Counted from the stretch's first letter, positions 19,684-28,729 are shown. The stretch: 64,000 nucleotides of DNA from Melioribacter roseus P3M-2 (GCF_000279145.1 NC_018178.1:1860001-1924000); one strand, 5' to 3'. Notes: generated by a model not told the origin, from the sequence alone. Program-made: numbers and translations.

Positions 19684-22107
19684 ATGGATAAAAACTATTC
19701 GACATTATCTAATTTGTTACGATATAGAAAAATTATTCTTCTGTCGCTGATACTTGCCGGGCTTCTTGTCTCGCTGAATCTGGACTCGATTCTCTATCCG
19801 ATAAACGCCGGGTATGAAAAATTGATGCGTGTGATTGGCGGAGCAAAAGAACCCGACAATTCTATCGTTATTGTTCATATAAATTCGGACGACATCGAAC
19901 AACTGGGAGGCTGGCCTCTCAAAAGAAGTTATTATGCTTTGTTGATAGACAGACTGAACAAGATTGGCGCCGGAAAAATCGGTTTAGAAGTTATGTTTTC
20001 GTCGAGGTTGGCTTTTCAGGAAATTTATAATGATTTGTTGAACGAAGTGTTAAAAAAATCGAATAATGTGGTTTTATCCTCGATTGTTGGGGCTTCCGAT
20101 ACGATTATTTATTCTCAACCCAAATACGATATTCCTTCTCTGAAAACAGGGCATTTGAATTATATTGTTTCGGACGGATACTACGTACCGGAATATATTT
20201 CGGTAAACGGACAAATTGAAAAAGCGTTCGCGGTGGAAATTGCGGGCGATAATTTTACCGAAGGAGACGATTTACTGAAAGTTAATTTTTACAATTCATG
20301 GCGAAAATTTCAAAATTATTCCTTGATAGAATTTTTTGAAGTAATTGAAAATAATCCGACTGAGTTCAAAAAAAAATTTGTTTTAATCGGAGTAAGCGAC
20401 CCAACGATTGCCAAGACGGTTTCCACTTTCTACGATAAGGAACTTCCGGGCGTCGGGTTTCACGCTTTTGTTCTCGATAATATAATTACGAGCCGATCGC
20501 TGAACTACAAATATTCAAATCTTTTGTCGGTTCTAGCAGTGTCGTCGATCCTTATGTTCGTCTTTCTATTGAGATTCGGCTCTCCGGAAGTGCGTATCGT
20601 GATCTATCTGTTTTTCATTCTGATTTCATCATTTGTCCTTTTCAATTATTTCTATGTCGTATTCAATTATACGGCGGCGCTCCTTCCGGCCGTTTTAATC
20701 TTTGCTTTCGAGTTATATATCAGGCTGTCCGTAAATAAACGGCAGGCATTGCTGGCTATGAGCGAAAGCGAATTGTTGAAAAGAACTCTCGAAAGTAAAG
20801 AAGCTTTGCTCGATAGCATTTCGAAGCATTCCGAGCAGGCAAAAGGAGAGTTGCTCAATCAAATAGAAAAATTGAAAAGCGAGATAAAACAACTAAAAGA
20901 GCTCGAGCAGGATTCCGAACCGGCGGAAAAACACGGCGGCAGACACCAATTCGAAAATATTGTTTATAAAAGCGACGAGATGGATAAGATTATAAAAACA
21001 ATTGAAAAAGTTGCGCCTACGGACGCAACTGTTCTAGTGGTCGGAGAAAGCGGCAGCGGCAAAGAACTGGTGGCAAGAGCAATTCATAATTTAAGCAATC
21101 GAAGAGAAAAGGAATTTATCGCTGTTAACTGCGCGGCTTTGACCGAGAGTTTGCTCGAAAGCGAACTTTTCGGCTATGTCAAAGGAGCCTTTACCAATGC
21201 GGTGTCCGACAAAAAAGGCTTGTTCGAAGCTGCCGACGGAGGCACTATATTTCTCGACGAGATCGCCGAAACAAGCGATTCGTTCCAGGCTAAACTTCTG
21301 AGAGTCATCCAGTTCGGCGAATTACAAAAAGTCGGCTCAACGCAAATGCAGAAAATAAACGTGCGTATAATCGCTGCTACAAATAAAAACCTGACTCAAT
21401 TAATAAAAGAAGGCAAATTCAGGGAAGATTTGTATTACAGGCTTAATGTGTTCAACATAGAAATTCCTCCTTTGCGGGAAAGGAAAGAAGACATACCGAT
21501 ACTGGCGGAATATTTTCTGGAATGCGAAGCCGACAATCTGAAATTTTCGAAAGCGGTATTAGACAGTTTGGCGAAGAACGAATGGAAGGGAAACGTTAGA
21601 GAACTCGAATCTATTGTAAAAAGAGCGGCTGTTTTTGCAAAAGCCGAAGGTCGAGATGTAATTCTATTGTCGGATTTGCCGGACGACTACAGGCATTATC
21701 GGAAAGCCGACCTTGAGGATTTTATTCTCGATTCCCTGCGCGCAAAAAAGTTTTCGCACTCTTCCGTAGTGGAAACTGCAAGGGAGATCGGGAACGTAAG
21801 CCGTACGGTTGTGGGCGAAATTTTACGGGGACTCTTTTTTAAGAATTATGTTCAGAACGATTATGACTTCGACGCTGCCGTCAGGTCAATTGCAGGGACG
21901 GACGAGGAAGAGGTTTTGAACAGATTAAAGTCGAAAGCCGCAAAGTATCTTGAAAATATTGAAAACGATTTGAAGAAAATTAAGACCGTCGATTTTGAAG
22001 AAGTCAAAAGAGCTTTCACATCAAAATATAAAAACCTGCCGGTTCGCTATCACGACTATCTCGACGCGGTTATCAGATTTTTGATTTCCCGAACAAAAAA
22101 TAGCTGA
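19684..22107 (+). CDS. Membrane CHASE2 sensor fused to a sigma54-type AAA+ activator domain with GAFTNA loop
   Basis: An 807-residue one-component membrane regulator. Order: TM1 (about 14-34); extracytoplasmic CHASE2 domain (about 35-275, with HINSDDIEQLGGWPL and PGVGFHAFVLDNI); three more TMs (about 280-350); coiled coil (about 355-415); AAA+ domain (about 430-665) with Walker A GESGSGKE (453-460) and Walker B GGTIFLDEI (about 519-527). The sigma54-contacting loop reads GAFTNA (501-506) instead of GAFTGA. The C-terminal 130 residues lack a recognisable Fis helix-turn-helix; ETAREIGNVSRTVVGEIL is a possible divergent one. CHASE2 is normally joined to kinases or cyclases, so direct fusion to an activator domain is unusual. 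The next genes, after a 640-bp spacer, are probable targets. Confidence 0.88.
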   Translation: MDKNYSTLSNLLRYRKIILLSLILAGLLVSLNLDSILYPINAGYEKLMRVIGGAKEPDNSIVIVHINSDDIEQLGGWPLKRSYYALLIDRLNKIGAGKIGLEVMFSSRLAFQEIYNDLLNEVLKKSNNVVLSSIVGASDTIIYSQPKYDIPSLKTGHLNYIVSDGYYVPEYISVNGQIEKAFAVEIAGDNFTEGDDLLKVNFYNSWRKFQNYSLIEFFEVIENNPTEFKKKFVLIGVSDPTIAKTVSTFYDKELPGVGFHAFVLDNIITSRSLNYKYSNLLSVLAVSSILMFVFLLRFGSPEVRIVIYLFFILISSFVLFNYFYVVFNYTAALLPAVLIFAFELYIRLSVNKRQALLAMSESELLKRTLESKEALLDSISKHSEQAKGELLNQIEKLKSEIKQLKELEQDSEPAEKHGGRHQFENIVYKSDEMDKIIKTIEKVAPTDATVLVVGESGSGKELVARAIHNLSNRREKEFIAVNCAALTESLLESELFGYVKGAFTNAVSDKKGLFEAADGGTIFLDEIAETSDSFQAKLLRVIQFGELQKVGSTQMQKINVRIIAATNKNLTQLIKEGKFREDLYYRLNVFNIEIPPLRERKEDIPILAEYFLECEADNLKFSKAVLDSLAKNEWKGNVRELESIVKRAAVFAKAEGRDVILLSDLPDDYRHYRKADLEDFILDSLRAKKFSHSSVVETAREIGNVSRTVVGEILRGLFFKNYVQNDYDFDAAVRSIAGTDEEEVLNRLKSKAAKYLENIENDLKKIKTVDFEEVKRAFTSKYKNLPVRYHDYLDAVIRFLISRTKNS

Positions 22108-22124: not shown

Positions 22125-22504
22125 GGTCGCTTCGATACGTCCTTCGGACTACTCAGCGACCGCGAGGTTATTTTTCTTAAAACGATGTCTGAGCAACTCT
22201 TGGGGGTAGTGACCGGAAACATTGTAGAGTTTAGTTTAAATTCACAGAAAATAAAGCATGTCGCTTCGATACGTCCTTCGGACTACTCAGCGACCCTGGA
22301 TAAAAATTTATACGGTGTCTGAGTAGCCCCGCAGGGGGTTAGGTACAGAAATATCGGTGATTTTAGCGAAAATAATGATGAGTTATAGATTGATGTTTAG
22401 ATACATTCTTCGGACTACTCATTGATCATGAATAAAATTTAAACGGTGTCTGAGTAGCCCCGAAGGAGCGTATCGAAGACACCGAAGACACCGAGGACAC
22501 CCAC
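22125..22504. repeat. Tandem array of three degenerate ~132-bp units containing hairpin-forming elements
   Basis: Each unit holds a 37-bp element (22125-22161, 22259-22295 and a decayed copy at 22391-22427) and, about 55 bp later, an inverted partner starting near 22182, 22312 and 22443 (core GTCTGAGTAGCCCCG). The period is 130-134 bp. The best element has outer arms GGTCGC/GCGACC and an inner stem GTCC-TTC-GGAC, so it folds into a hairpin in RNA or single-stranded DNA. The array ends in three 9-bp near-repeats, GACACCGAA, GACACCGAG and GACACCCAC (22478-22504). No open frame covers it. Its type matches dispersed palindromic elements of bacterial genomes rather than a coding or CRISPR repeat. 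Confidence 0.85.
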
Positions 22505-22684: not shown

Positions 22685-22700
22685 TTGGCACGTTATATGT
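22685..22700 (+). promoter_or_regulatory. Sigma54 (-24/-12)-like promoter of the lipoprotein-barrel-FecR operon
   Basis: TTGGCACG is a full match to the -24 element of sigma54 promoters; the -12 element four bases further reads ATGT where TTGC is expected (two of four match). It lies 48 bp before the start codon of the first lipoprotein, in the only long intergenic region of the window, next to a gene for a sigma54-type activator domain. The weak -12 leaves this as a candidate. Confidence 0.45.
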
Positions 22701-22748: not shown

Positions 22749-23825
22749 ATGAAAGTAAGAAGGTCTTATTTGGCAATCCCGGCGGCAATATTATTCTTTG
22801 CATTATTGTTTGCGGGATGTAACGACAACAGTTTAATTACCGAACCCGAATCGGGACTTTCGGTTAAAGCCGCGCTTGAAAAAATAACTTATGAAGACGA
22901 AGCGGTCAACTCTTTCGAACCCAATTTTAATGAAGAAGACGCTATGAATATTTTGGGGAAAGACCTTGCAAAAACCATCTATCCCTTGAGAGTGGGGCAG
23001 GTAATCCACCTTGTAGAGCGCGATCTGCAGATTGAATACGGTCCCGACACTGCTCTGGGCACTCTAACCAAAAGATTCGAAGGGGAATTGTTAATACTCG
23101 GCGCTTTAGACGACGGCTCTAACGTACCCGACACTCTTGTAAAGAAACCGTTTACGACGGTTATGACGCGCAAAATCAAATATGAACGCGTCGACAGCAC
23201 GGGCGATAATCTGGTTGACTGGAAAGTAATCGGAATGTCGTTGCCCGAAGCCGGAACGTCCACCGATAATATTGAAATTACTAAAATCACATTAACAACG
23301 CTCGAAGGCAATTCGGTTACGATTACTTCTCCGAATGATTTCTTCTTCGATCTGGGAAGAAGACTTATGACTGGCGAGCAGACAATGACCGGCGGAAATC
23401 CCGGTAACGGTCAGTACGGAGGAATGGGAATGTCCGGCAATCAAAATCACGGCAACCGGCAATACGGCAACGGAAATGCATACGGCAGCAGAGGTATGCA
23501 CGGTATGATTCCTTATATCAGAAAAAGAGAACCGGTTACAATTACCGTGGAAGTAAAAAGTATTTATGAAGAGCCCGATTTCCTTACGGTTACTCACGGC
23601 GCTTCTGTAATCAATAAAGGCAACAGGGTCAAAGAACGATTTGAATTAATTGATACTCAATTTGACGGCGCGTACTACATACGCACTTACGAAAAGACAA
23701 TCGTTACAAATGCAATGCCCGGGTTTATGCATGCCGTAGTCAATATGCTTCCTCAGGGAGTAATTAAAGATACCGATACACCGGTCGAAGAAAAGACGTG
23801 GGGAATTCCGTATCTTATTCAATAA
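22749..23825 (+). CDS. Lipoprotein of unknown function with Gly/Asn/Met-rich segment
   Basis: A 358-residue protein led by a signal peptide with lipobox LFAGC (Cys26) after MKVRRSYLAIPA, and a strong ribosome site CGGAGG. No known domain is recognised. Residues about 215-255 are low-complexity and rich in Gly, Asn, Met, Tyr and His (GQYGGMGMSGNQNHGNRQYG), which separates two beta-rich parts. It is the first gene behind the -24/-12-like promoter and is followed by another lipoprotein, a barrel protein and a FecR protein. The proposed role is envelope-exposed component of that system (inference). Confidence 0.75.
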   Translation: MKVRRSYLAIPAAILFFALLFAGCNDNSLITEPESGLSVKAALEKITYEDEAVNSFEPNFNEEDAMNILGKDLAKTIYPLRVGQVIHLVERDLQIEYGPDTALGTLTKRFEGELLILGALDDGSNVPDTLVKKPFTTVMTRKIKYERVDSTGDNLVDWKVIGMSLPEAGTSTDNIEITKITLTTLEGNSVTITSPNDFFFDLGRRLMTGEQTMTGGNPGNGQYGGMGMSGNQNHGNRQYGNGNAYGSRGMHGMIPYIRKREPVTITVEVKSIYEEPDFLTVTHGASVINKGNRVKERFELIDTQFDGAYYIRTYEKTIVTNAMPGFMHAVVNMLPQGVIKDTDTPVEEKTWGIPYLIQ

Positions 23826-23860
23826 TTGTTTTATCTTTTAGTTAAATAATTATATTTTAT

Positions 23861-23880
23861 GAGGAGGCGGTTGCCTCCTC
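23861..23880 (+). other. Intercistronic hairpin GAGGAGGC-GGTT-GCCTCCTC
   Basis: A perfect 8-bp stem with a 4-nt loop between the two lipoprotein genes, without a following T run. It could protect or process the polycistronic mRNA, or mask the nearby purine-rich sequence. It is not a classical terminator. Confidence 0.5.
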
Positions 23881-23906
23881 GTACAATTAAAGGCAGGTCG
23901 AGAGAA

Positions 23907-24794
23907 ATGAAAAAGTTTACAATAATACTTTTGATTATTGTTTTTGTATACGGCTGCGGCGAACCTTTGCCGACCGAGCTGACGGAAGTCGACAATAGTT
24001 CGGAAATCGAGTTCGAGGCAGTACCTGCCGAATCGGCTAATTTGGATTACGACAGCACGGGCATTGTCGACCGGAACATCGACAAAAGCGTTGTCGTAAG
24101 CGTGGTGGGCGTACGCAATACGAATTTCAGAACGGTTCAAACGGAAGGATATTATTATGCCATTTTTAACGATAAATCGAGTCCTGTTCAGGCGGGCAAC
24201 GGCCATATGCTGGGATATAAAACCAGACAGATGAACGCCGTATTTTTCAACAATTTTCAGGCGCGGAAAATAGAGCATAAAATCAAATACAGAGTGGGTT
24301 CGGTTTATATAGACACTTTGCTCGGCGTTAAATATTTTGCCTCTCAGCATATGATGAACATGATGGGAAGGATGAATCGGTTCCCGTATTCGAGTAAAGT
24401 GAGTTTCAAAGCAATGAACGGACATCATCAACAGAATATCGAGTTCGATATACCCACGCCTTCCGAAATTACGGGCAGAGTCAGACTAATCGGCAACAGA
24501 GAAGACAGGGATGCGTACTTTGAACTCGAATGGAATCCCGAAGGGCGCGGACGCGTTGAAATAGTTTTTGCCGCAATTAATTCAAACGGTGAAATTAATC
24601 CGCTAATGAGAGTAAGAGGAAATGACAACGGCAATATGAGAGTGCCATTAAATGTTTTTAGAAATATTATTACAGAACATAACCGCTCGCTGGTAATCAG
24701 TTATATCAGGAAAATCGAAAACATAGATAAATTTATTGATGACTCCTATATCGTTTCGGAAAGTATTCATAATATTCGTATCGATCTGCCTTGA
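23907..24794 (+). CDS. Second lipoprotein of unknown function
   Basis: A 295-residue protein with signal MKKFTIILLIIVFVYGCGEP, lipobox VYGC (Cys17). I chose the ATG at 23907 over an in-frame upstream one at 23859 because it gives a proper lipoprotein signal and follows GAGAGAAA. The rest has no recognised domain but looks like a beta-rich extracytoplasmic fold, and includes a Met-rich patch (QHMMNMMGRMNRF) reminiscent of the Met-rich segment of the preceding lipoprotein. Its 3' end overlaps the next gene by 56 bp, supporting co-expression. Confidence 0.75.
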   Translation: MKKFTIILLIIVFVYGCGEPLPTELTEVDNSSEIEFEAVPAESANLDYDSTGIVDRNIDKSVVVSVVGVRNTNFRTVQTEGYYYAIFNDKSSPVQAGNGHMLGYKTRQMNAVFFNNFQARKIEHKIKYRVGSVYIDTLLGVKYFASQHMMNMMGRMNRFPYSSKVSFKAMNGHHQQNIEFDIPTPSEITGRVRLIGNREDRDAYFELEWNPEGRGRVEIVFAAINSNGEINPLMRVRGNDNGNMRVPLNVFRNIITEHNRSLVISYIRKIENIDKFIDDSYIVSESIHNIRIDLP

Positions 24795-26745
24795 AGCGTT
24801 ATTTCTGTCTTCGGGGCAGAAAATTTTATACGCTCAACAAAGCGTCGATAATTACGGTTATTTGAATAGCGCGGGTAGATTTCGTATGAACGGATTAGAA
24901 AGCAACATATCGAATTTTTCCAATACCGAGGATTTCGAACTGACGGCGTCTTTTTCTTTCCGCAATGACAACCGTTTGAATTCGAATCTCCATTCTCTCT
25001 CTTTCTCAAAAACTATAGGCGAACATAATTTCTATTTCCGTTACACTCCCGGTCTTGCTCAAAACTTTATTATAAAAAGCAGCGCGACGATTCAACTGCC
25101 CGACACTATTGCCAACTTGAAAACCGAATTAAATTACTCGGAAAAATTCGGCCTGGGGTATTCTTATAAAATTTCTTCGAGCGTTAATTTGGGTTTTTCT
25201 TTAAGGTATTTTGAGCAAACTTTCAGGAAGGAATCGCCGGTTCTCTATTATACCGACAGCGTAAATTATATTTCGATTAAAGAAGATGAATCGACCAATA
25301 ATTACTGGCGCGGAGATATCGGCGCAGATGTTATTTTTAATGACATAATTTCATTCTCGCTTTCCACAATAAATTTATTTATTAGCAGGGAAAGCAATGC
25401 GGGGGAAATAAGCCGTCTCTATTCCTTAAAAACAGAAAAGGGAATTCATGCCTCGTTGCAATTGAGTAGCGCATCGGGTTTTATGACAAAGTTAGGATAC
25501 GAATACGGATTCGATAATTATAAAGCTTTCTATGCCGGTTTAAATTATTCATTCGATTTTGCGGGCGGAAAAATTACATCCGGAGTTCTTTTTATGCACG
25601 ACAAGTTCAGAAATCCTTTTATTACTGCAGTTATGCCGTCGGTTGCTTTTACAAAAGAGGGATATACTATTTCAGCGGGCGGTGTTAAATATTTTTCGAA
25701 TAACATTTCAAAGACTACCGAGTCGCTTATAAACGAAGGTATCTACAGCTTGTTTAATAATCCTTATAGCGCCGATAGAGCTTTCGTGAATTTTAATCTG
25801 GCGTTGAGTTTCAAAAGCAAACAACTTGTTAAATTCATCGACGTCTCCATTGACTCGGATATTTATCCTACTCTTTCTGAAGTCTATCTGAACAAACCGT
25901 TTGCAACCGGAAAGGCTGTTAACTTGTCGAATGAAATAATCGAGGTACGACCGGCGAGTTACATAAAAAACATCAACAACGAACCGATATATTCGCCTTC
26001 GGTTAAAATATTGCCGGGCGATACGGTCGATATCGGATTCTATACTATTGTGTCGAACGCCGACGCCGCCAAAAGAAAAATCGAACAAGCCGATTTTTAT
26101 CTTTATACGGATAAATCGGAACCGGACGATTATATACGCAAACCCGTTCTGGTGCACGATAAAAACAGCTGGGACGGCAATGTATTCAATCTGATTTATT
26201 TCGTCAGAAAAGATTTCGACTTTTCGAATAAGTATTCGAGAGAAATTCTGAATAAATATCCCCGCGAAATGACCGACGGCGTTTTCCGGAAAATTAAAAT
26301 TCTATACGACGAATTTTCGCGCAATCTGGAATATGTATCGGACCCCAGAGCAAGCACGGAACGCGTCCAATTCCCTCACGAAACTATCGAACTCAAAGGC
26401 GGCGACTGCGACGATTTGAGCGTCTGTTTTTCTTCGATGCTGGAGAGCATCGGAATTCAAACGGCTTTTGTCGATTACAAAAATCCCGACGGAGTCAGCC
26501 ATGTCAATTTATTGGCGAACACGGAATTGTCGCCTACGGAATTATTCAAAATAACAAATAACGATAATAAAATTGTTGTGCGAAAAAATGAGGAAGGAGT
26601 CGATCAGATTTGGCTCCCAATTGAAACAACTGTATTAACCGGATTCGACGACGCCTGGTCTGCCGGCGCCGATAAATTTAACGCCGAGGCTATTGAAAAT
26701 TTGGGACTCTCTAAAGGCAGCGTCGTTATTATCGATATTTATTAA
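24739..26745 (+). CDS. Beta-barrel-like outer-membrane protein fused to a transglutaminase-like domain
   Basis: A 668-residue exported protein (signal peptide ending YAQQ; a TTG one codon upstream is an alternative start). Residues about 50-370 show alternating hydrophobic strands with aromatic ends (HNFYFRYTPG, NLGFSLRYFEQ), as in outer-membrane barrels. Residues about 385-480 form a beta-rich linker. The C-terminal part (about 490-668) is transglutaminase-like: C557 in GGDCDD and H588 in SHVNLL match the Cys-His pair of that fold. A periplasmic cysteine hydrolase hung on a barrel is an uncommon combination. It lies in the operon between a lipoprotein and FecR; the substrate is unknown. Confidence 0.65.
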   Translation: MTPISFRKVFIIFVSICLEALFLSSGQKILYAQQSVDNYGYLNSAGRFRMNGLESNISNFSNTEDFELTASFSFRNDNRLNSNLHSLSFSKTIGEHNFYFRYTPGLAQNFIIKSSATIQLPDTIANLKTELNYSEKFGLGYSYKISSSVNLGFSLRYFEQTFRKESPVLYYTDSVNYISIKEDESTNNYWRGDIGADVIFNDIISFSLSTINLFISRESNAGEISRLYSLKTEKGIHASLQLSSASGFMTKLGYEYGFDNYKAFYAGLNYSFDFAGGKITSGVLFMHDKFRNPFITAVMPSVAFTKEGYTISAGGVKYFSNNISKTTESLINEGIYSLFNNPYSADRAFVNFNLALSFKSKQLVKFIDVSIDSDIYPTLSEVYLNKPFATGKAVNLSNEIIEVRPASYIKNINNEPIYSPSVKILPGDTVDIGFYTIVSNADAAKRKIEQADFYLYTDKSEPDDYIRKPVLVHDKNSWDGNVFNLIYFVRKDFDFSNKYSREILNKYPREMTDGVFRKIKILYDEFSRNLEYVSDPRASTERVQFPHETIELKGGDCDDLSVCFSSMLESIGIQTAFVDYKNPDGVSHVNLLANTELSPTELFKITNNDNKIVVRKNEEGVDQIWLPIETTVLTGFDDAWSAGADKFNAEAIENLGLSKGSVVIIDIY

Positions 26746-26759
26746 GGAGGAAAATTAAA

Positions 26760-27455
26760 GTGAAGAGATTAATTATTATAATGGCGATTCTTACGCTGCC
26801 TCTAATGGCTCAGGTTTTTGAAGTGGAAAAAGTTAGAGGAGACGTAAGAGTACTCGGAGCTTCAGAAGAAGCCTGGAAGCCGGTAAAACCGGGAATGGAA
26901 CTGAAAGGGACGGATTTAATCGCTACCGGAGAAAACTCGTCCGTCTATTTGAAAAGCGGCGCTTCCGGATTTGTACTGGAAGATAATTCCGCCCTCGGAA
27001 TAAATAATATTAAGAAAATGACGCTCAACGAGCTTTTGCTGGCTTTGGCGGCGGATGAAATAAAAAATATACGGCCCGGAAAATCCGACGGTAAAACGCG
27101 CAATACCGCCGTCTACGGTGAAAAGATCGATAACCGTAAATTAGAAACGCACACAGACGATTCGGTTTTCCTCGGTATAAAAAAACTAAACGGAGCGAAA
27201 CAACTGGTTAAAAACGGTTATAAAGAGTCCGCGATTTTACTGGCTAAAGAAACCTACAGAAAATATCCCGCAACGAGGGAGCGAATATCTGACCGTCTCT
27301 TTTTTGTGGAAATAATGGTCGATATGAATTTGCTTAACGAGGCGGCAGAAGAAATAAACGATATTGCAAAATATAAAATTGATTCCGCCAATTTGAATCG
27401 ACTCGAAAAAATCAGCCGGCTGTTAAAAGAGAAGATGGCGGACGTTTCTCAGTAA
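26760..27455 (+). CDS. FecR-domain periplasmic protein
   Basis: A 231-residue protein with signal MKRLIIIMAILTLPLMAQ and a FecR domain (about 22-90: VRGDVRVLG, GMELKGTDLIATGENSSVYLKSG). The start is GTG, fixed by AAGGAGG ten bases upstream. FecR domains often act in the periplasm as sensors or as binding modules, and CHASE2 and FecR proteins are often found as neighbours. The C-terminal part (about 125-231) is helical and TPR-like. It ends the operon and overlaps the convergent GWxTD gene by 7 bp. Confidence 0.8.
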   Translation: MKRLIIIMAILTLPLMAQVFEVEKVRGDVRVLGASEEAWKPVKPGMELKGTDLIATGENSSVYLKSGASGFVLEDNSALGINNIKKMTLNELLLALAADEIKNIRPGKSDGKTRNTAVYGEKIDNRKLETHTDDSVFLGIKKLNGAKQLVKNGYKESAILLAKETYRKYPATRERISDRLFFVEIMVDMNLLNEAAEEINDIAKYKIDSANLNRLEKISRLLKEKMADVSQ

Positions 27456-28729
27456 CGATAACCAGGCCAGCGGCTGTAGTCGGGATTTAGAAGTCTGTAA
27501 TCGCCGAATCCGGTTTGGTCTACGAATACGAACGAGCGGTTCAGTTCGTAATAATCCCAAATTTCATACGGTTTGGAATTCGGGTCGAACGGATGACGCT
27601 CGACGTAACTGGGAGGCCCGAAAGTAATGTAAATCATGCCCATATCCGTGCGCCAGCCTTCGTTGCCGAATGCCTTGAAATTTTTGTTGGCGTATTCGAC
27701 TCTTCTGTAGTATTCATTCATAATGGGATTTACCGTCATTTTGGGATTCGGCTTCTTCTTGTCCCAGAATGCGAGGAATCTCGTCAGTCGTTCTTCGTAA
27801 GTCTTACCCTCTTTGATATACGCCAGGTCGGCGGGCGACGCAATATAGATCATCTGTTCGATTGCCTTGTCGATGTCCGTAATCGAATTCGGCAATCCCG
27901 TAATCTTCGACAAGACGATCTTTTGGGTCTTAGCGCTGATGTTGCGGTTTACATCTGTTACTGTCATTGTTAACTTGTAGGTGCCGAGAATAAAATTTAA
28001 TGTGCTTAAAGAATCGTAAACAATGTTCGCTCCGTCGTTAACGCTGATCGTTCTTTTCTCTTCGATTTTGCTTTCGCTGTCGAGGTGTTCGAGCAAATAG
28101 GTTATTTCCGCGTCGGCGGCATCGGAAGAATAGATTTCGTAATAAAATCGAAGCGTTGTGTCTTTGTTGGTTACTATTCTGGAGACATTCGGCACAATGA
28201 CGTCGCCCTTTTCATTCTTCATTATATCCTTAACGAGCAATATTCCGCTTACGGCCAGATCGCTATTGAATTTTTTTACCGATACGTTGTAGGTGTATGA
28301 ATGTGTTTTTCTTGAGTCGGTATCTTCAAGTATGCATTTGATTTTATAATTCCCCGCCTCCAGAGGAAAAGACTTATATGACATGTTGAAGTTTTTTCTT
28401 GAAATTGTCTCGTCAAAGTCGGTTGTGGAAATTCTTTCTTTCCAGATTCGTTCGAAGATTACTTTGTCGGTTTTGGCTTCGTAAAAAACTACGGATAAAT
28501 TATATTCTGCGTAAAAAGCGTCGCCTCTTTTAACGAATTGAATATTTGCATAAGGCACCTGAAAAAAAACGTCGAGGCGGATTTTAGTTGTGTCGTCGGC
28601 TGTTTTGTATTGCACGAAATCGGTATAGAAAACGGGCTCGAATTTGCTGATGTTGACGTCTTCCGAAGATTCCACCTGAGCCGAGATTGCATACGCCAAA
28701 CAAATAAATAAAAACACGAAGCGTTTCAT
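27449..28729 (-). CDS. GWxTD-domain exported protein
   Basis: A 426-residue protein with a signal peptide (cleavage near ISA-QV), beta-sandwich-like repeats through the middle and a C-terminal GWxTD domain: G358-W-R-T-D362, followed by MGMIYITFGPPSYVE and IWDYYELNRSFVFVD. The family is found mainly in Bacteroidetes/Chlorobi-type and Acidobacteria genomes and has no established function. It follows rimO by 17 bp on the same strand. A second, larger GWxTD protein with TPRs is at 55822-57879. Confidence 0.85.
   Translation of the reverse strand: MKRFVFLFICLAYAISAQVESSEDVNISKFEPVFYTDFVQYKTADDTTKIRLDVFFQVPYANIQFVKRGDAFYAEYNLSVVFYEAKTDKVIFERIWKERISTTDFDETISRKNFNMSYKSFPLEAGNYKIKCILEDTDSRKTHSYTYNVSVKKFNSDLAVSGILLVKDIMKNEKGDVIVPNVSRIVTNKDTTLRFYYEIYSSDAADAEITYLLEHLDSESKIEEKRTISVNDGANIVYDSLSTLNFILGTYKLTMTVTDVNRNISAKTQKIVLSKITGLPNSITDIDKAIEQMIYIASPADLAYIKEGKTYEERLTRFLAFWDKKKPNPKMTVNPIMNEYYRRVEYANKNFKAFGNEGWRTDMGMIYITFGPPSYVERHPFDPNSKPYEIWDYYELNRSFVFVDQTGFGDYRLLNPDYSRWPGYRY

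Follow-up and report, generated by a model that had tools for sequence, protein, structure and literature searches.

The window, the whole 64,000-nucleotide stretch of DNA that we analysed, lies in a complete genome of 3.30 Mb and contains a cassette of five genes on the plus strand (Table 1). These encode a CHASE2 membrane sensor fused to a sigma-54 activator, two lipoproteins, a protein in which a predicted outer-membrane barrel precedes a transglutaminase-like (TG) domain (hereafter, the barrel-TG protein), and a smaller protein that we refer to as the partner. The barrel-TG frame begins with an ATG at 24739 and is uninterrupted (ORF calling and translation), with an uncertain exact start codon because start points vary among homologues. 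Its nearest named relative (81% identity) is encoded in a Melioribacter roseus assembly (L100). A gene convergent with the cassette (27449-28729, minus strand) encodes a GWxTD-domain protein (TIGR04514; E 8e-32), and its position beside the cassette is conserved only in this closest relative.

Table 1. Features of the cassette, with positions counted along the window.
Feature	Position	Strand	Description or basis
CHASE2 membrane sensor fused to sigma-54 AAA+ activator	19684..22107	+	807 aa; PF05226 E 2.8e-28, PF00158 E 8.4e-71
Sigma-54 type promoter-like element TGGCAC-GTTAT-ATGT	22686..22700	+	ahead of lipoprotein 1; comparison of loci
Lipoprotein 1	22749..23825	+	FAGC lipobox; first operon gene
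Lipoprotein 2	23859..24794	+	VYGC lipobox; overlaps barrel-TG start
Barrel-TG protein	24739..26745	+	668 aa; signal peptide, hatch-like segment, 14-strand barrel, beta-sandwich, TG-like domain (predicted)
Signal peptide, residues 1-32 (...ILYA/QQS)	24739..24834	+	sequence; helix 6-25 in AF2 model
Predicted 14-strand outer-membrane barrel, residues 66-356	24934..25806	+	AF2, Foldseek, loop-length topology
Beta-sandwich between barrel and enzyme, residues 360-475	25816..26163	+	AF2 models
Transglutaminase-like catalytic domain, residues 482-668	26182..26742	+	Pfam PF01841, AF2, Foldseek
Putative catalytic Cys557 in GGDCDD	26407..26409	+	Cys in 63/63 orthologues
Putative catalytic His588 in SHVNLL	26500..26502	+	His in 63/63 orthologues
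Putative third triad residue Glu629 in W-x3-E-x-T	26623..26625	+	Glu in 63/63 orthologues and 20/20 distant members
Partner	26760..27455	+	231 aa; signal peptide, retention-module/FecR-like beta domain, helix, TAVYG, TPR-like C-terminus; proposed substrate
TAVYG motif, partner residues 116-120	27105..27119	+	in variable linker; candidate cleavage or docking site

An AF2 model of the whole barrel-TG protein (63 sequences) had a mean pLDDT of 86 and a pTM of 0.59, and the relative placement of its domains is therefore uncertain; residues 358 to 668 modelled alone reached a pLDDT of 92 and a pTM of 0.87. The first-pass annotation had described a barrel joined to a TG-like domain, and the model agrees, with a barrel followed by a TG fold; by AF2 and Foldseek, the N-terminal part is a predicted barrel and not a soluble beta-sandwich. 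That two-part layout had overlooked the beta-sandwich lying between barrel and enzyme. Taken alone, this architecture and the membership of the protein in the cassette are held with high confidence.

Residues 66 to 356 were modelled as 14 long antiparallel strands, the third of which is kinked at an invariant Pro104-Gly105. The best Foldseek matches of the whole model in the PDB were FadL (E 8e-8), PorV of the type 9 secretion system (8gl6_F; E 9e-7), and the FadL-like barrels found in BAM complexes of Bacteroidota (9n2d and 9hiv); TodX and OmpG were also matched. The TM-scores of this search were modest because three domains were covered at once. A Pfam profile search returned no Toluene_X (PF03349) match in the barrel-TG protein, and one relative (L153) matched weakly (E 0.05). 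When the profile of the barrel was compared with that of one PorV-like protein (L101:2415-3794), no support emerged, and the barrel assignment therefore depends on the predicted structure: the protein is of the FadL type by predicted fold, not by sequence. As a rule, short turns of outer-membrane barrels lie on the periplasmic side and both termini are periplasmic. The predicted turns after even strands are all 2 to 4 residues long, and the loops after odd strands include ones of 17, 9, and 28 residues. This pattern, together with the exit of strand 14, agrees with the earlier claim of an enzyme facing the periplasm, and we infer that the enzyme domain lies in that compartment.

Residues 515 to 578 match Pfam Transglut_core (PF01841) with 25.9 bits against a cut-off of 23 (E 1.3e-5), and 59 of the 60 members searched match this profile at E up to 0.1; the protein belongs to the transglutaminase-like superfamily. 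The Cys-His pair reported in the first pass (GGDCDD/SHVNLL) is present in the translation, and a search for its loss in homologues found it kept in all 63 orthologues, in which Q544, D559, W625, E629, and T631 are also invariant. Position 556 is D in 55 of the orthologues, N in 7, and A in 1, and position 558 is D or E in all 63. Among 20 more distant members, His and Glu are kept in every one and Cys in 19. One relative (L152:2780-4786) has Tyr in place of Cys (GGDYDD) with His and Glu kept; this is either a naturally inactivated enzyme or a mistake in the assembly.

The search for a third catalytic residue led to Glu629, with Asp absent at this place from the 63 orthologues and the 20 distant members. 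Transglutaminases such as TG2 carry the motif W-x3-D-x-T, and since W-x3-E-x-T occupies its place, Glu629 is likely the third residue. Glu is an accepted variant of the third residue in papain-like triads (PMC10318531). The TG domain has the highest mean conservation of the protein (0.68; barrel, 0.50), which, with the otherwise invariant Cys-His-Glu, points to putative catalysis. Foldseek matches of residues 358 to 668 were 3kd4, 3isr, LapG (4u65), and human TG3. The NCBIfam model antiphage_ProA also aligned with residues 503 to 649 (E 4e-4). With 17.8 bits against a cut-off of 1500, an identity as ProA was dismissed as an echo of the superfamily; the TG module may also be present in a phage-defence protein (ProA), on which a literature search found no relevant paper.

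A PDB sequence search with the single barrel-TG protein returned no match. When a profile of the C-terminal part was used, the only PDB matches at E<0.1 were the LapG chains 4fgo and 4u65 (E 0.03 to 0.06), which have GGDC[ED]D in common with the barrel-TG enzyme. In LapG and DvhG, the D-C-E positions beside the active Cys are calcium ligands needed by the enzyme (PMC13090378); in a sequence comparison, Asp556 and Asp558, which flank Cys557, correspond to these ligand positions. A profile search for Peptidase_C93 (PF06035) matched 0 of the 60 members and nothing in the source genome. Given the absence of a match and the different third residue, we do not class the barrel-TG protein as LapG/C93.

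In an alignment of the partners, the order is a beta domain, a conserved helix (LLLALA), TA[VI]YG, and a TPR-like part. TAVYG is the second most conserved five-residue stretch of the partner (mean, 0.94 versus 0.29 for its flanks); it is present in 60 of 71 partners and missing in 11. The first-pass annotation had assigned the locus to a "CHASE2-FecR set." The CHASE2 half of this label is borne out by synteny and co-inheritance (see below), and the FecR half is unsupported by Pfam, in that 0 of 29 partner members matched FecR (PF04773) at E values up to 1. Comparison with true FecR by hhalign gave a remote similarity (probability, 54%). The NCBIfam model retention_LapA (NF033682), on the other hand, matched 20 of 29 partner members (best E 8.6e-8) versus 0 of 11 Pfam-FecR control proteins from the same group (Fisher p 7e-5). 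The partner in the window scored 17.5 bits against the 50-bit cut-off over profile positions 2 to 68 of 145, and all partner matches for which bits were given fell below that cut-off. By sequence, the partner thus weakly matches the LapA retention module, which it resembles more than the Pfam FecR domain. In known LapG substrates, a retention domain is followed by a targeting helix and then by a [T/A/P]AAG site (PMC13090378). A search of the source genome for retention-module adhesins gave a chance-level match only, a weak negative in that the search initially missed the partner itself.

In loci with enough contig, lipoprotein 1 is followed by lipoprotein 2, barrel-TG, and partner, in that order. 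The CHASE2-sigma54 gene usually lies upstream; it is flipped downstream in three loci (L076, L088, and L089) and is located elsewhere in some. An element composed of TGGCAY and a -12 part precedes lipoprotein 1; counted on TGGCAY alone, it was present in 49 of 59 loci (4.5 expected), and no such enrichment was found ahead of the four other cassette genes when the loci were compared. A search of the window with the strict sigma-54 consensus returned no match at the promoter, and the relaxed element was recovered only through the comparison of loci. Computationally, these sequence data show lipoprotein 1, lipoprotein 2, barrel-TG, and partner as a putative operon under a sigma-54 type promoter element. 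The interval between the CHASE2-sigma54 gene and the operon contains repeats (22126-22466) composed of a 36-nt unit (GTCGCTTCGATACGTCCTTCGGACTACTCAGCGACC; two identical copies and one at 75%) and a 33-nt unit, with a repeat spacing of about 132 nt.

Full-length barrel-TG orthologues occur across the order Ignavibacteriales. We compared 58 genomes of this order, 33 with and 25 without the barrel-TG gene. The partner was present in 33/33 and 0/25, respectively (Fisher p 6e-17), the CHASE2-sigma54 activator in 33/33 and 2/25 (p 3e-14), and lipoprotein 1 in 33/33 and 4/25 (p 4e-12); these p-values ignore shared ancestry. One of the two CHASE2 exceptions (G054) contains a barrel-TG fragment at a contig end. 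Given that the CHASE2 gene is not adjacent to barrel-TG in 12 of the 33 genomes, linkage alone is insufficient to explain its presence.

Beyond the order, the C-terminal profile detected relatives in 117 of 392 Bacteroidota genomes, the weakest being generic TG-fold matches. The whole cassette is kept in families of the same class (L145-L153), and a locus outside the order (L101) contains CHASE2-sigma54, TG, and partner genes. In Flavobacteriales (L105 and L107), the TG domain is carried by a giant NHL/TPR protein. Sandwich-TG proteins of about 1,600 aa are encoded at L105:5005-10029, L107:5512-10482, and L157:3899-8647, and in these three loci the TG gene is followed by genes for a partner-like protein and a CHASE2-cyclase protein. 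Two further TG proteins of 830 to 850 aa with a TPR-like end (L158:6641-9133 and L164:6443-8992, both minus strand) adjoin CHASE2 proteins; their N-termini consist of about 280 residues of a different kind, and the cyclase was confirmed for the CHASE2 protein of L158. The TG protein of a Spirochaete (L106) has weak OmpA-type barrel matches. Altogether, the TG gene has a partner or CHASE2 gene as its neighbour in 21 of 24 divergent loci; neither was found beside it in L159 and L162, which are among the most divergent, or in L106. A second CHASE2 set is present in the source genome (L167:6593-11928; G000:C1, about 292.6-297.9 kb). It has no TG gene and consists of a CHASE2-cyclase, a 798-aa protein with an Ig-like start and a barrel-like end, and a true Pfam FecR protein, which suggests that a barrel, a periplasmic beta-domain protein, and CHASE2 form a recurring arrangement.

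We tentatively propose, at somewhat less than an even chance for the whole chain, that the barrel-TG protein is an outer-membrane-anchored, periplasm-facing, LapG-like cysteine protease within a CHASE2 envelope-signalling cassette. The CHASE2-sigma54 protein would sense the state of the envelope and switch on the operon. The FadL/PorV-type barrel would hold the enzyme against the inner face of the outer membrane and might itself sense a ligand or transport it. Signalling from a barrel to CHASE2 has a reported precedent in NsrA and the CHASE2 cyclases of Sinorhizobium (PMC13001267). The enzyme, probably with calcium beside its Cys, would cleave the partner in the linker near TAVYG, and the release of the TPR half or the beta domain would alter envelope assembly or feed back on CHASE2. 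Elsewhere in Bacteroidota, this enzyme domain is carried by other N-terminal parts, and the CHASE2 output can be a cyclase. The main argument for proteolysis is that enzyme and partner separately resemble the two members of the Lap pair, each weakly. Counted against a LapG-like reading are the sub-threshold LapG similarity with no PF06035 match and a Glu as third residue, the sub-threshold and partial retention_LapA match, a motif that is TAVYG rather than TAAG and is missing in 11/71 partners, and the three loci where the TG gene lacks both a partner and a CHASE2 neighbour. TAVYG could also be a structural strand instead of a cleavage site. A more specific version, fairly unlikely as it stands, is a Lap-like system without the known LapD/c-di-GMP partner, in which a barrel-built LapG-type protease cuts a free-standing retention-module/TPR protein and CHASE2 sensors read the state of the pair, with an output that depends on lineage (sigma-54 transcription in Ignavibacteriales and cyclic nucleotide in Flavobacteriales relatives).

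Proteolysis is not needed if the barrel, like NsrA in Sinorhizobium, binds a ligand as an outer-membrane receptor and the sandwich-TG part and the partner relay to the CHASE2 periplasmic domain, the enzyme being a binding platform or acting on a small molecule. The perfect co-inheritance with the CHASE2-sigma54 protein, also when unlinked, fits this reading, as do the retention of the TG protein while the CHASE2 output is a sigma-54 activator in some lineages and a cyclase in others, the one member with Cys replaced by Tyr, and the reported precedent of a barrel, NsrA, leading to a CHASE2 cyclase (PMC13001267). Against these points stand a Cys-His-Glu that is otherwise invariant in the most conserved domain of the protein and several relatives that bear the TG domain without this barrel, and we consider such a receptor rather unlikely. 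A cross-linker, deamidase, or transpeptidase that acts from the outer membrane, joining or modifying peptidoglycan or envelope proteins (e.g., the partner or the two lipoproteins of the operon), is distinctly unlikely in our judgement: the family membership in Transglut_core, a sandwich-plus-core order like that of human TG3 and 3kd4, and possible acceptors in the operon (two lipoproteins and the TPR protein) speak for it, but the closest PDB sequence relatives are LapG proteases and the partner resembles a protease substrate, not an acceptor. In Bacteroidota, it is common for large families to have loose gene neighbourhoods, and the locus could on that basis be a generic PorV/FadL-like transporter with a housekeeping TG domain, beside CHASE2 genes by lineage inheritance only. 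This highly improbable reading is already contradicted by the four-gene synteny across some 70 loci, the single promoter element for the block, the joint presence or absence of the genes across 58 genomes (in 12 of which the CHASE2 gene lies elsewhere), and the neighbours kept in 21 of 24 divergent loci.

The co-inheritance of the barrel-TG protein with envelope sensor genes across an order suggests that envelope signalling may be linked to a protease in a new way. Little is known of the ligands and partners of CHASE2 sensors; an enzyme of the TG type co-inherited with CHASE2, with a CHASE2 or partner neighbour kept despite the swap of output, offers a handle on how CHASE2 could learn the state of the outer membrane. 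If the protease reading is true, fusion of a barrel to a periplasmic cysteine protease would be a new way of placing proteolysis at the outer membrane, comparable to yet distinct from the Lap system. Our literature search found no paper treating CHASE2 and sigma-54 together, and for CHASE2 and transglutaminase it returned a single paper, whose title and abstract concern death domains.

FadL and PorV share with the barrel-TG protein the predicted 14 strands, the N-terminal hatch-like segment, the kinked strand 3, and the best Foldseek matches; the barrel-TG protein differs in having no Toluene_X match and in bearing a C-terminal periplasmic enzyme. The Bacteroidota TG-like structures 3kd4 and 3isr, the best matches of the C-terminal part, combine a sandwich with a TG-like core, but TM-scores are low (about 0.3) and no barrel is known for either. 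CHASE2-FecR operons such as BiofilmReg of Burkholderia combine a CHASE2 sensor and a FecR-type periplasmic protein in one operon, with a two-component output and, among the listed components, no TG protein or barrel (PMC5192318). In Sinorhizobium meliloti, the outer-membrane barrel NsrA is reported to act with the CHASE2 cyclases CyaD1/CyaD2/CyaK (PMC13001267). This system resembles the cassette in that an outer-membrane barrel works with CHASE2 membrane sensors; its output is cAMP, and the cited text names no TG enzyme or sigma-54 activator. With LapG/BTLCP/DvhG, the barrel-TG protein has in common the TG fold, GDC[ED]D with the calcium-ligand positions, a periplasmic location (predicted here), and, as for LapG, a genetic partner with a retention-module-like domain, a helix, and a conserved short motif. 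That motif is TA[VI]YG in the partner, not the [T/A/P]AAG of LapG substrates, and the retention_LapA similarity of the partner is sub-threshold. Unlike LapG, the barrel-TG protein has no PF06035 match, has Glu rather than Asp as the third residue, 41 residues from His to this acid, and is fused to a barrel; the companion identified for it is CHASE2/sigma-54, where the Lap system has LapD/c-di-GMP.
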